In this document: positions 6,892 through 14,711 of the stretch, in pieces | How positions within the stretch are numbered: the first letter of the stretch is position 1 | Layout: every line of letters begins with the position of its first letter | NCBI GenBank assembly: GCA_900315395.1 | Contig: OMZC01000123.1 | Coordinates: 1-38,950, forward strand | Direction: 5' to 3' | Origin: an uncultured Gammaproteobacteria bacterium | GTDB lineage: Bacteria; Pseudomonadota; Gammaproteobacteria; Enterobacterales; Succinivibrionaceae | DNA: 38,950 bases | The notes under the pieces: generated by a model | Told to the model about the DNA's origin: nothing | The model's input: only the letters and a program-made list of their open reading frames with translations | The model's database searches: none | Position numbers and translations under genes: made by a program

Positions 6892-7719
6892 TTAAAGATC
6901 CATTAGACCGTACTCAAGTAAGATCTCTTCTAATCTGTCCTGAGTTAATGGCTTAGGAATAACAAAGTTCTTGTTCTCTTCAATCTTACGAGCAAGCTCT
7001 CTGTATTCATTTGCCTGAGCTGCCTCTGGATTGAACTCAATTACGGTCTTACGTCTAATCTCAGCTCTTTGAACATCGTTATCACGAGGAACAAAGTGGA
7101 TTAACTGAGTACCTAACTCTTTGGCAAATGCCTCTACTAACTCGTATTCTCTATCAACTTTTCTGCTGTTACAGATGATGCCACCTAAACGTACACCACC
7201 CTGTCTTGCGTAACGGGCAATACCTTTAGAGATGTTGTTAGCAGCATATAGAGCCATCATTTCGCCTGATGCTACGATGTAGATTTCTTTAGCTTTACCT
7301 TCACGGATTGGCATTGCGAAACCACCACAAACCACGTCACCTAAAACGTCATAGAAAACGTAATCAAGATCGTCTGTGTATGCACCTAGTCGCTCTAACT
7401 GATTGATAGCGGTGATAATGCCACGACCTGCGCAACCTACACCAGGCTCAGGACCACCTGACTCAACACAGCGTGTGCCCTTATAACCTTCTTTTAGAAT
7501 ATCGGTTAACTCAAGATCTTCACCGATATCGCGTAAGGTATCTAATACGGTTTTCTGAGCTAAACCACCTAATAGAAGTCGTGTAGAGTCAGCCTTAGGA
7601 TCACAGCCTACAACCATGACCTGATTTCCTCTCTCAGCTAAACCTGCTGTTAAGTTCTGAGTAGTAGTTGATTTACCAATACCGCCTTTACCATAAATTG
7701 CAATTTGTCTTGCTGCCAT
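6892..7719 (-). CDS. nifH: Nitrogenase reductase-like iron protein (NifH/MarH family)
   Basis: A homodimeric [4Fe-4S] ATPase that donates electrons to a nitrogenase-type partner. The 275-residue product has the P-loop GKGGIGKS (10-17), the [11 protein letters not shown] region, and the two cluster ligands Cys96 (GVGCAGRG) and Cys131 ([10 protein letters not shown]). Arg99 is the position ADP-ribosylated in some NifH proteins. The sequence is close to bona fide NifH/AnfH rather than BchL or CfbC. AAGGA precedes the ATG. It lies 27 nt downstream of the NifK-like gene, so it is the third gene of a D-K-H unit. NifH alone does not define the substrate; it may also serve NifB-linked cofactor maturation. 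Confidence 0.93.
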
Positions 7720-7746
7720 TTGATTTTTCCTTAAAAAATAGATTTA

Positions 7747-9087
7747 TTATTTGTTGCCAACTGCTGCGCTGTATACGCGCTCAATTAGATTTAAACCGCC
7801 TCTGTAACCTGCAAAGCTACGAGTTACTACCAATGTTTCTGTAGAAGGTGCTGAAACCTCAATTAAAAGAGCTTTCTTTTCTCTAGCTACATCAGCTTCC
7901 CAGCTACTGCCCAAAAGCAGAGGTACACCTGAACCAAAATCTGTTTCTTGTAATGACTTTTCTACAAAGTAACCATCCTCATGGAACTCTACATCTACTG
8001 ATACATCCTCAGATAAGTGCTTGAAGCTCTCAGAGATCTGCTCACGCAGGTTCTCAGGAGGATTATCTGTAATGATCTGCTTTACAGGGATTAAACCTAG
8101 CTGATCGGTTAAGAAAGTGCTGTAAGAGAGAACATCTGTTGAACTGCCTACAGCTGCAAACTTAGCTGGAAGACCATACCAGTACTCTGAGAAGAAGTTT
8201 GCAAAGTGCTCTAAGAAGTAATAGTAGATTTCAGACTCTTTCTTGATGAACTCTTCAGACTTAGTCTTATCAATGCCACCGAACTCAACTACCTTGCGGA
8301 TGAAGCTTGTAGTAGCCTCTTCACCGATTGGCAATCTGTCAAAGTGCAGATATCTCTGGGAGTATTTCTTCTCGAGGTGTTTTACAATCTTAAGACCGTT
8401 CCAAGTACCGATTAGTAAGTTGAAATCAGCCTTAGGAATATCCTTCCATTCCTTTGCGCCACCGCTTTCAGGTCCAAATAAGACATTAACCTCAAAGCCG
8501 ATTGCTCTTAAGATACGTACAATCTCAAGATAATCACCTCTCCAGTTCTGATTGAAGTATGGAGTTTCAAGCCACAGGTTAACTAAACCTTTTTGTTTCT
8601 CACCGTCATACTTACCTACAAACTGATCGATGATAGCTTTTACTACAAGCTCATGACCGTCTAGGTTGGTACCCTTAAAGCCACCGGTATCAGCAAAGAC
8701 AATTGGATAACCGTTCTTTTGGTACTTGCGTACTACAGAGCCTACATCGTCACCTACTAACTCACCTGAGCAACCGGTTAGTACTACGAAAAGATCGCCT
8801 TTTACTACACCTAAACTTGCTCTAATTAAATTGTCTAGCTTCTTAGCGCCACCGAAAACAATGTCGTTCTCACCTACGTTAGCACTAGGGATGTTGCCTC
8901 CACTTACACCTGCTGTTCCCTGAAAGCCGTTATCAAAGCTTAAAAAGAAGAACTGTTTGTACATACAGCCAGGACCTGTATTTGCAATAGGCACTGCACC
9001 TTTAATTGCTGCTACTGTATAAGCTGCGCCTACAGTACAAGCGTAGTGTGAATGAACAATAGTGCCGCCTTTCTTTTTATTTGCCAT
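7747..9087 (-). CDS. Nitrogenase-like reductase beta subunit (NifK/MarK-like)
   Basis: A 446-residue oxidoreductase component 1 family protein, shorter than typical NifK (~520). All three beta-side P-cluster cysteine positions are visible: Cys17 (HYACTVGAAY), Cys41 (TGPGCMYKQ) and Cys106 (LTGCSGELVGDDV), matching NifK Cys70, Cys95 and Cys153. The N-terminal extension of Mo-nitrogenase NifK is missing. It starts 2 nt after the D subunit stop, consistent with a tightly coupled heterotetramer. Together with D it should form a P-cluster-carrying reductase. By family it belongs with the nitrogenase-like reductases; the MarK assignment is inferred from locus content, not from an alignment I could run. 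Confidence 0.85.
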   Translation of the reverse strand: MANKKKGGTIVHSHYACTVGAAYTVAAIKGAVPIANTGPGCMYKQFFFLSFDNGFQGTAGVSGGNIPSANVGENDIVFGGAKKLDNLIRASLGVVKGDLFVVLTGCSGELVGDDVGSVVRKYQKNGYPIVFADTGGFKGTNLDGHELVVKAIIDQFVGKYDGEKQKGLVNLWLETPYFNQNWRGDYLEIVRILRAIGFEVNVLFGPESGGAKEWKDIPKADFNLLIGTWNGLKIVKHLEKKYSQRYLHFDRLPIGEEATTSFIRKVVEFGGIDKTKSEEFIKKESEIYYYFLEHFANFFSEYWYGLPAKFAAVGSSTDVLSYSTFLTDQLGLIPVKQIITDNPPENLREQISESFKHLSEDVSVDVEFHEDGYFVEKSLQETDFGSGVPLLLGSSWEADVAREKKALLIEVSAPSTETLVVTRSFAGYRGGLNLIERVYSAAVGNK

Positions 9088-9089
9088 TT

Positions 9090-14347: not shown

Positions 14348-14377
14348 CACAAACTCCTTTTGACAGACGTGTTATTC

Positions 14378-14438
14378 TTTACAGTTATCTTTTGTTTACT
14401 GTTATCTGTCTTTTACAGTTACCTTTTATTTACAGTTG
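14378..14438. repeat. 17-bp tandem repeats upstream of nifS
   Basis: Units are 14378-14394, 14395-14411 and 14412-14428, plus a partial unit 14429-14438; consensus TTTACAGTTATCTTTTR. They occupy the nifS leader and resemble the 16-bp units upstream of the D subunit gene (shared TTTACWGT then TCTTT). Confidence 0.85.
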
Positions 14439-14528
14439 CAATTCCATAAAAAAATTCCATCAACAGCTTATTTCTGCTAATGGAATCATAAAATCGGCTG
14501 TAATTTGTATTGTTATAAAGAATGAAGT

Positions 14529-14711
14529 CTATTCATTAGGATCTTCTTGAACGGCTTCAAATGGGCAGACGCTTTGGCAAGCAGCACAATCTGAACATAC
14601 AGAAGCATCAATTTTAAATAAACCATCATCAGTTGGTTCAATAGCACCTACAGGGCAATTATCCTGACATTCACCGCAGCCACTGCAAACTGTCTTATCA
14701 ATAAAGAACAT
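14529..14711 (-). CDS. 2[4Fe-4S] ferredoxin
   Basis: A 60-residue bacterial-type ferredoxin with two complete cluster motifs: CSGCGECQDNCPVG near the N-terminus and CSDCAACQSVCPFEA in the second half. It is acidic and has the internal two-fold repeat of clostridial-type ferredoxins. AGGAG lies about 10 nt upstream of the ATG. It is the first gene of the nitrogenase-like locus on this strand and is a natural electron donor for NifH and/or NifB. No dedicated ferredoxin reductase is nearby. Confidence 0.9.
   Translation of the reverse strand: MFFIDKTVCSGCGECQDNCPVGAIEPTDDGLFKIDASVCSDCAACQSVCPFEAVQEDPNE

Follow-up and report, generated by a model that had tools for sequence, protein, structure and literature searches.

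A nitrogenase-like locus in a Succinivibrio genome

The window analyzed here, that is, the whole 38,950-nucleotide stretch of contig OMZC01000123.1 (assembly GCA_900315395.1), comes from an uncultured gammaproteobacterium that is a Succinivibrio, and contains a nitrogenase-like locus on its minus strand. Five core genes occupy positions 6892–12664 in the gene order X-B-D-K-H, genes for a NifS-type cysteine desulfurase and a ferredoxin lie upstream of them, and a small open reading frame (ORF) lies between the desulfurase gene and the first core gene. Searches of the window proteins with NCBIfam and Pfam models identify one NifH, two Oxidored_nitro subunits, a NifB-type radical SAM protein, a NifX-type protein, a NifS-type desulfurase and a 2[4Fe-4S] ferredoxin, each encoded where an initial annotation of this DNA had placed it. 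That annotation had proposed a methylthio-alkane reductase (Mar)-type or new-substrate reductase in a host-associated anaerobe, and the results below support it. We conclude that the locus is, with high probability, a Mar operon of a Succinivibrio (marXBDKH, with ferredoxin and nifS nearby), operating as in the mechanism proposed below; this reading draws on sequence similarity, on ligand and pocket residues, on the lack of NifEN, and on genome context.

The D and K subunits match methylthio-alkane reductase

In comparisons with Protein Data Bank (PDB) chains, the window D subunit matches Rhodospirillum rubrum Mar chains 9fmg_A (660 bits) and 9d9u_A (659 bits), and the best non-Mar chain, a nitrogenase alpha chain, with 130.8 bits. 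The window K subunit matches R. rubrum MarK with 506.6 bits, and the next best chain with 55. The E value for the D-to-MarD match, 2.8e-197, excludes a chance match. Over 495 aligned columns the identity of D to R. rubrum MarD is 56.6%; to two NifD it is 22.7–23.4%, and against the nitrogenase subunit models both D and K score far under the cut-offs.

Residues were compared in two sets of rows. The D set has 35 group-IV rows, namely ORFs from related loci with a length of 480 aa or more, reduced at a 93% identity threshold, together with R. rubrum MarD and a Chlorohelix D; 5 Nif/Bch rows were aligned alongside. The K set has 79 rows, in which near-copies and repeats of one locus were retained. 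The six P-cluster cysteines named in the initial annotation are present throughout (Cys76, Cys101 and Cys168 of D in 35/35 rows; Cys17, Cys41 and Cys106 of K in 79/79), as is the cofactor ligand Cys279 of D (35/35). Trp205 and Phe209 stand, again as had been stated, at the positions of NifD Gln191 and His195 in all 35 rows, and the two NifD rows carry Q and H there. The initial annotation erred at one residue: His460, its cofactor histidine, is kept in 34/35 rows, but its counterpart in R. rubrum, by counting along the alignment, is His450, which is not the structural ligand, and we reject it as a cofactor ligand. In the R. rubrum cryo-electron microscopy structure the ligand is His429, with Cys270, and with Arg428 in loop I (PMC12552129). 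The residue aligned with His429 is His439, next to Arg438, which aligns with the hallmark Arg428 in this Mar-specific loop; each is present in 35/35 rows.

The pocket of the window D comprises His204, Trp205, Phe209, His384, Cys83 and Gln84. Trp195, Phe199, His194 and His375 of R. rubrum MarD correspond to identical residues (Trp205, Phe209, His204 and His384), and conservation across the alignment is high (His384, 35/35; Gln84, 34/35; His204, 33/35). Two distant D rows, 40–46% identical (one from a Chlorohelix plasmid, one a second D from Ruminococcus UBA7013), also carry the Trp, Phe, Arg and His, and those residues alone are therefore no proof of Mar function. This distant lineage has Met or Val at the position of His204 (L039, D at 2405, Ruminococcus UBA7013; L109, 5992–7473, Chlorohelix plasmid).

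No further nitrogenase genes were found in the host genome

The host assembly comprises 2.48 Mb and is 92.6% complete. Searches with PF00148 (E ≤ 0.001) give two matches, D and K of the mar locus, and thus no NifEN in the window, as had been noted, or elsewhere in the genome; marH encodes the one full-length NifH. The stated absence of nifV also stands: the best genome match reaches 281 bits, and the cut-off is 463. In a tree of 40 rows, which carried a long-branch warning, NifD and NifE lie apart from the window D, which is thus not placed with NifD of nitrogen fixers. We conclude that the window enzyme, judged from its residues and relatives, very probably does not fix nitrogen.

Components of the operon

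The features of the locus are collected in Table 1.

Table 1. Features of the mar locus in the window, and leader ORFs of metQ genes in other Succinivibrio loci
Feature	Position	Strand	Evidence
marH, NifH-type reductase	6892–7719	-	TIGR01287, 465 bits; Pfam Fer4_NifH
marK, beta subunit, P-cluster Cys17/41/106	7747–9087	-	R. rubrum MarK, 506.6 bits
marD, catalytic subunit	9090–10691	-	R. rubrum MarD 9fmg, 659.7 bits; residues; tree
marB, NifB-like radical SAM protein (CNIGCKFC)	10836–11795	-	TIGR01290, 268 bits, residues 26–292
marX, two NifX-type domains	11798–12664	-	Pfam Nitro_FeMo-Co, two stretches
Met/Cys-rich leader ORF, 61 codons, before marX	12803–12988	-	composition; genus counterparts
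nifS-like cysteine desulfurase	13190–14350	-	TIGR03402, 416 bits, under cut-off 530.75
2[4Fe-4S] ferredoxin	14529–14711	-	Pfam Fer4 and related models
metQ leader ORF, L128	5610–5810	-	
metQ leader ORF, L133	4965–5108	-	
metQ leader ORFs, L186, L192, L169, others			

MarH has, by motif, Cys96 and Cys131 for a [4Fe-4S] cluster and the P-loop GKGGIGKS. MarB scores below the cut-off of TIGR01290, a model of full-length NifB (343.65), and is without the C-terminal NifX domain. MarX, a probable cluster carrier, has 288 aa, with its two NifX-type stretches joined by a Cys/Gly-rich linker and 8 Cys in all. Apart from that of L026 (260 aa), the X-like ORFs of loci outside Succinivibrio have 88–174 aa, and many Bacteroidales mar loci have two separate X-like ORFs, the second richer in Cys, which suggests that MarX arose by fusion of two carriers. 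In S. dextrinosolvens (L045) and L026 a relative of the nifS-like gene adjoins mar, and a relative of the ferredoxin gene comes after marH in S. dextrinosolvens; the desulfurase is a probable sulfur donor in cluster assembly and the ferredoxin a probable electron donor. The X-B-D-K-H order, correctly given in the initial annotation, is not unique to the window, being common to L041, L042, L043, L045 and L099.

An ABC ATPase gene at 5649–6719 is separated from marH by a terminator-like hairpin, and its membership in the operon is unsupported; the Pfam search (E ≤ 0.001) gives only ABC_tran for it. A ModF-type molybdate ABC ATPase (16388–17851, +) lies near the mar locus, although Mo was not detected in the R. 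rubrum enzyme. Farther along the window are genes for an AAA_14/DUF4143 ATPase (18511–19818, +) and for a Fic/DOC-family protein with a Fic-like C-terminal domain (37151–38251, +).

Sulfur metabolism of the host

Two genes of the host genome score above the cut-off for the MetY (O-acetylhomoserine sulfhydrylase) family, and MetY can use methanethiol. PAPS reductase gave no match in the host genome, with 14/14 control genomes positive, which suggests that sulfate assimilation by the usual route is missing. MtnA likewise gave no match in the host genome (9/14 control genomes positive), and an MtnN-type nucleosidase is present. In R. rubrum, salvage of methylthioadenosine (MTA) by way of 2-methylthioethanol, with MtnA as a step, reportedly feeds Mar; the failure to find MtnA points to use of outside methyl-sulfur compounds rather than of the cell's own MTA. 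The cell probably scavenges such compounds from outside.

Distribution and origin of mar

Among 56 genomes of the family, D is present in 3/19 Succinivibrio genomes and in 0/37 others. In the D tree the window D and the S. dextrinosolvens D, which are 86% identical in the type strain DSM 3072, group together (support 98/93), and this pair joins a Clostridia metagenome-assembled genome and [Clostridium] polysaccharolyticum (100/100). With D in 3 of 19 genomes and the nearest outside relatives in Clostridia, lateral gain is the simplest reading, and the mar operon was probably acquired from Clostridia.

A contig scan for D relatives, of which we considered the best 80 of 107, gives Mar-like genes in Clostridia, Ruminococcus, Fibrobacter, Bacteroidales and Succinivibrio. 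Within these 80, D outside Succinivibrio is 64–83% identical to the window D, and 22 record titles name a ruminant stomach compartment. K adjoins D in nearly all related loci, and H, B and X-like genes are present in many; order and neighbors vary, and some stretches are without H, B or X.

S. dextrinosolvens has a second D, 68–69% identical to the window D, and a further genome of the genus (G002) has two contig-end D pieces, 72% and 59% identical. The second S. dextrinosolvens pair, marD2K2 (L019, 6267–15185; L047), comes after a nitrate/sulfonate-type ABC transporter; an MFS gene comes next, a LysR gene is close by, and the 21-kb stretch L047 contains no H or B. The best models for the transporter are SsuA_fam, ntrB and ntrCD, all under cut-off. 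Second DK pairs in Ruminococcus albus, Acetobacterium and others show a like pairing with a transporter, and marD2K2 is possibly a reductase for another sulfur compound.

A Met/Cys-rich ORF precedes marX

The small ORF between nifS and marX, which the initial annotation had not named, is rich in Met and Cys codons in its second half. At the same place, both further Succinivibrio mar loci have a 46-codon ORF ending MCRC(S/T)CMCKCKC; by eye these do not align with the window ORF, that is, the make-up is kept and the sequence is not. In dinucleotide shuffles of five regions (three mar, two metQ), the observed richness was reached in 0/2000 shuffles for each.

To score such ORFs more widely we required a score of 4.0 or more and no fewer than 3 Cys in the best stretch, a definition by which Met-only leaders would be missed (a stricter earlier scan did not list the window ORF). 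In 193 kb of control stretches of the host genome, none of 622 small intergenic ORFs scored as high as 2.7. Around mar, metQ and MetY-family genes (252 kb), 10/767 small ORFs were at 4.0 or above: three precede marX, four metQ and one an oxidoreductase-like ORF (L134; flavin-oxidoreductase-like by eye, in a metQ locus), and two lie elsewhere. The Succinivibrio mar loci thus have high-scoring ORFs in 3/3 cases, with scores of 6.3–7.5. In mar loci outside Succinivibrio, covering 361 mar-type genes (11 with less than 200 nt upstream), 2/77 loci reached 4.0 (L070, before the second D; L079, before H), the best at 4.64.

Other Cys-rich small ORFs were seen in L079 (706–765, +; before marH, 4.32), in L091 (9745–9858, +; before marD, 3.76) and, after marH, in the Acetobacterium loci L046 (14230–14322, +) and L050 (14214–14297, +), at 3.32 each.

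The window ORF region contains an AT-rich hairpin, then seven T some nine bases later, and folds better than shuffles (z = −2.3; 1/100). We reject a riboswitch: Rfam gives no match at gathering score in the window, and only a tRNA in eight related loci. The ORF has features of leader peptides: it is short, has its putative control codons near the stop, and precedes an operon for the same amino acids. It would probably control mar through attenuation in response to charged Met- or Cys-tRNA.

Probable Met/Cys leaders precede methionine-uptake genes in 10 of 19 genomes of the genus

The 19 Succinivibrio genomes contain 98 metQ-type matches, one under cut-off, of which we examined 61. This set is not random: it comprises all those of G000 and G009, three of G002, those in the loci studied, and 19 chosen for scores similar to those of genes in which leaders had already been seen, or of their close kin. 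A Met/Cys leader on the same strand, at most 420 nt upstream, precedes 16/61 metQ genes, in 10/19 genomes (two of the 61 genes have less than 200 nt upstream). The same test on 95 control ORFs gives 0, with a Fisher p of 8e-8 that is too good, because the metQ genes are related and partly chosen. Behind one metQ leader lies a textbook terminator, a GC-rich hairpin and then eight T. Seven of the ten genomes with metQ leaders showed no mar, and the leader set is therefore probably older in the genus than mar. We tentatively propose, at somewhat less than even odds, that Succinivibrio has genus-wide Met/Cys leader attenuators of methionine uptake and that the acquired C-S reductase came under one of them.

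In Bacteroidales mar loci, small ORFs ending in CECCCRCSMPVC-like runs occur in 14 of 85 sources scanned (L084, 13180–13374 and 18616–18798, +; also L081, L082, L086–L088, L094–L098 and L100–L102). In L084, L086, L087 and L088 one such ORF precedes a cysteine-synthase-like and cystathionine-enzyme-like pair (families searched in L084 only), and in L084 the second ORF lies upstream of a further ORF and a MetQ-like gene.

Assessment of the reading and its alternatives

Several results weigh against the Mar reading and the leader control that goes with it. R. rubrum MarD falls outside the 30-row set, supported at 99/99, that contains the window D, and the substrate range may therefore have shifted. 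With MtnA not found, the feed of Mar by MTA-derived 2-methylthioethanol is probably missing here, and, the genome being about 93% complete, all absences are provisional. Functional tests of Mar cover R. rubrum and a few relatives and are not known from gut bacteria, and we know of no measured activity for the clade of the window D. On the side of the leader, 45/61 metQ genes are without one at our threshold, high-scoring ORFs in L019 and L135 precede no sulfur gene, and no clear textbook terminator or sequestor was found at the mar leaders.

The first alternative is a reductase of Mar fold, with the same clusters and chemistry, that acts on a new C-S or other substrate. The separation of the window clade from R. 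rubrum MarD and the failure to find MtnA in the host favor it, as does the second DK pair of relatives, whose place beside a nitrate/sulfonate-type ABC transporter suggests that substrates differ between paralogues. However, the pocket residues are the same as in R. rubrum MarD (PMC12552129), and the X-B-D-K-H run of the window contains no transporter gene, which suits small volatile substrates; we consider a new substrate unlikely.

The second alternative bears on the ORF before marX, which could encode a small metal- or cluster-binding peptide for the reductase, instead of acting as a leader. Its Cys/Met/His-rich ends could bind metal, and it adjoins cluster-assembly genes. However, ORFs of the same make-up precede metQ genes in ten genomes, seven of which showed no mar, the make-up is kept between mar loci while the sequence is not, and a metQ counterpart is followed by a textbook terminator, all of which make a metal-binding peptide improbable.

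A third alternative is a NifEN-free group IV-A nitrogenase (Nfa) that fixes N2, a type put forward for Endomicrobium proavitum and Heliophilum fasciatum: there too an anaerobe has nifB, nifX, ferredoxin, nifH and nifDK-like genes without nifEN (PMC9147875). However, E. proavitum NfaD is said there to keep all ligands for N2 reduction (PMC9147875), which sets it apart from the window D with its Trp and Phe, and the window D is 56.6% identical to a Mar that did not reduce 15N2 (PMC12552129). Judged on the pocket residues and on this identity, we give nitrogen fixation by an Nfa-type enzyme very little credence.

The other nitrogenase-like enzyme that serves sulfur assimilation, isethionate reductase (IsrBHDK), also cleaves C-S bonds and is reported from intestinal bacteria too (PMC11423573), and the second DK locus of S. 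dextrinosolvens adjoins a sulfonate-type transporter; but IsrD is described there as having one of three P-cluster Cys and no Cys275, and IsrB as nearest BciD (PMC11423573), whereas the window D and the second S. dextrinosolvens D have those Cys and the window maturase is NifB-like, and we reject Isr as having next to no chance. A Mo nitrogenase is rejected on the absence of Gln191 and His195 and the failure to find nifEN and nifV in the genome.

Proposed mechanism and significance

On the Mar reading, MarB would make the [Fe8S9C] cluster, and the two-domain MarX would probably carry it straight to MarD, with no NifEN, Mo or homocitrate step needed. R. rubrum Mar contains P-clusters and [Fe8S9C] clusters, with no homocitrate or Mo detected (PMC12552129). 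The ferredoxin would reduce the MarH dimer, from which electrons would pass, with ATP hydrolysis, to the MarDK P-cluster and on to the [Fe8S9C] cluster, whose ligands would be Cys279 and His439. A substrate CH3-S-R (dimethyl sulfide, ethyl methyl sulfide, 2-methylthioethanol or similar) would be cut to methanethiol and a small hydrocarbon, and MetY would convert the methanethiol to methionine. The leader ORF would sense charged Met- or Cys-tRNA by ribosome stalling, and expression would rise when sulfur amino acids are short. We infer the substrate, cluster content, electron path and leader control in this scheme, as we do the direction of gene transfer.

If the enzyme is active, sulfur salvage in the gut would go along with a release of methane, ethane or ethylene in which archaea take no part. 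Rumen bacteria may then make methanethiol for their own use when sulfur amino acids are short, and their hydrocarbon output would not depend on methanogenic archaea. Through the leader ORF, the physiological trigger becomes open to direct testing in culture, in the type strain S. dextrinosolvens DSM 3072 with its two DK pairs.

Comparison with known systems

The kind of enzyme, Mar, is known; what is probably new is the host and habitat, for which no report of Mar in the rumen was among the matches listed in a search of open-licence papers, and the probable sulfur-amino-acid leader, for which, at metQ or at mar, the same kind of search likewise listed none. The leader ORF is probably the most novel part.

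R. rubrum MarBHDK (PDB 9FMG, 9D9U) shares with the window locus the ligands, the pocket, a NifB-like MarB, a NifH-like MarH and the lack of NifEN. It differs in gene order (B-H-D-K, versus X-B-D-K-H here) and in the D sequence (56.6% identity), and the window adds a two-domain NifX-like gene and a Met/Cys leader, in a host in which MtnA was not found. The loci of Clostridia, Ruminococcus, Fibrobacter and Bacteroidales have like D, K, H, B and X genes but differ in order, and leaders are rare in them. IsrBHDK shares nitrogenase-like C-S cleavage but lacks the full P-cluster and cofactor Cys and uses another radical SAM family (PMC11423573); NfaHDK of Endomicrobium and Heliophilum shares nifB, nifX and DK-like genes without nifEN but is said to keep the N2 ligands (PMC9147875). 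For the leader, the nearest known systems are the Cys leader peptides of actinobacterial cys operons, with Cys codons near the stop (PMC1262725), and uORFC-8-2, a short ORF that contains Cys codons and lies ahead of cysS in Rhodobacterales (PMC8632094). The window leader differs from these Cys leaders in mixing Met with Cys codons, in its targets, metQ and mar, and in its gammaproteobacterial host.

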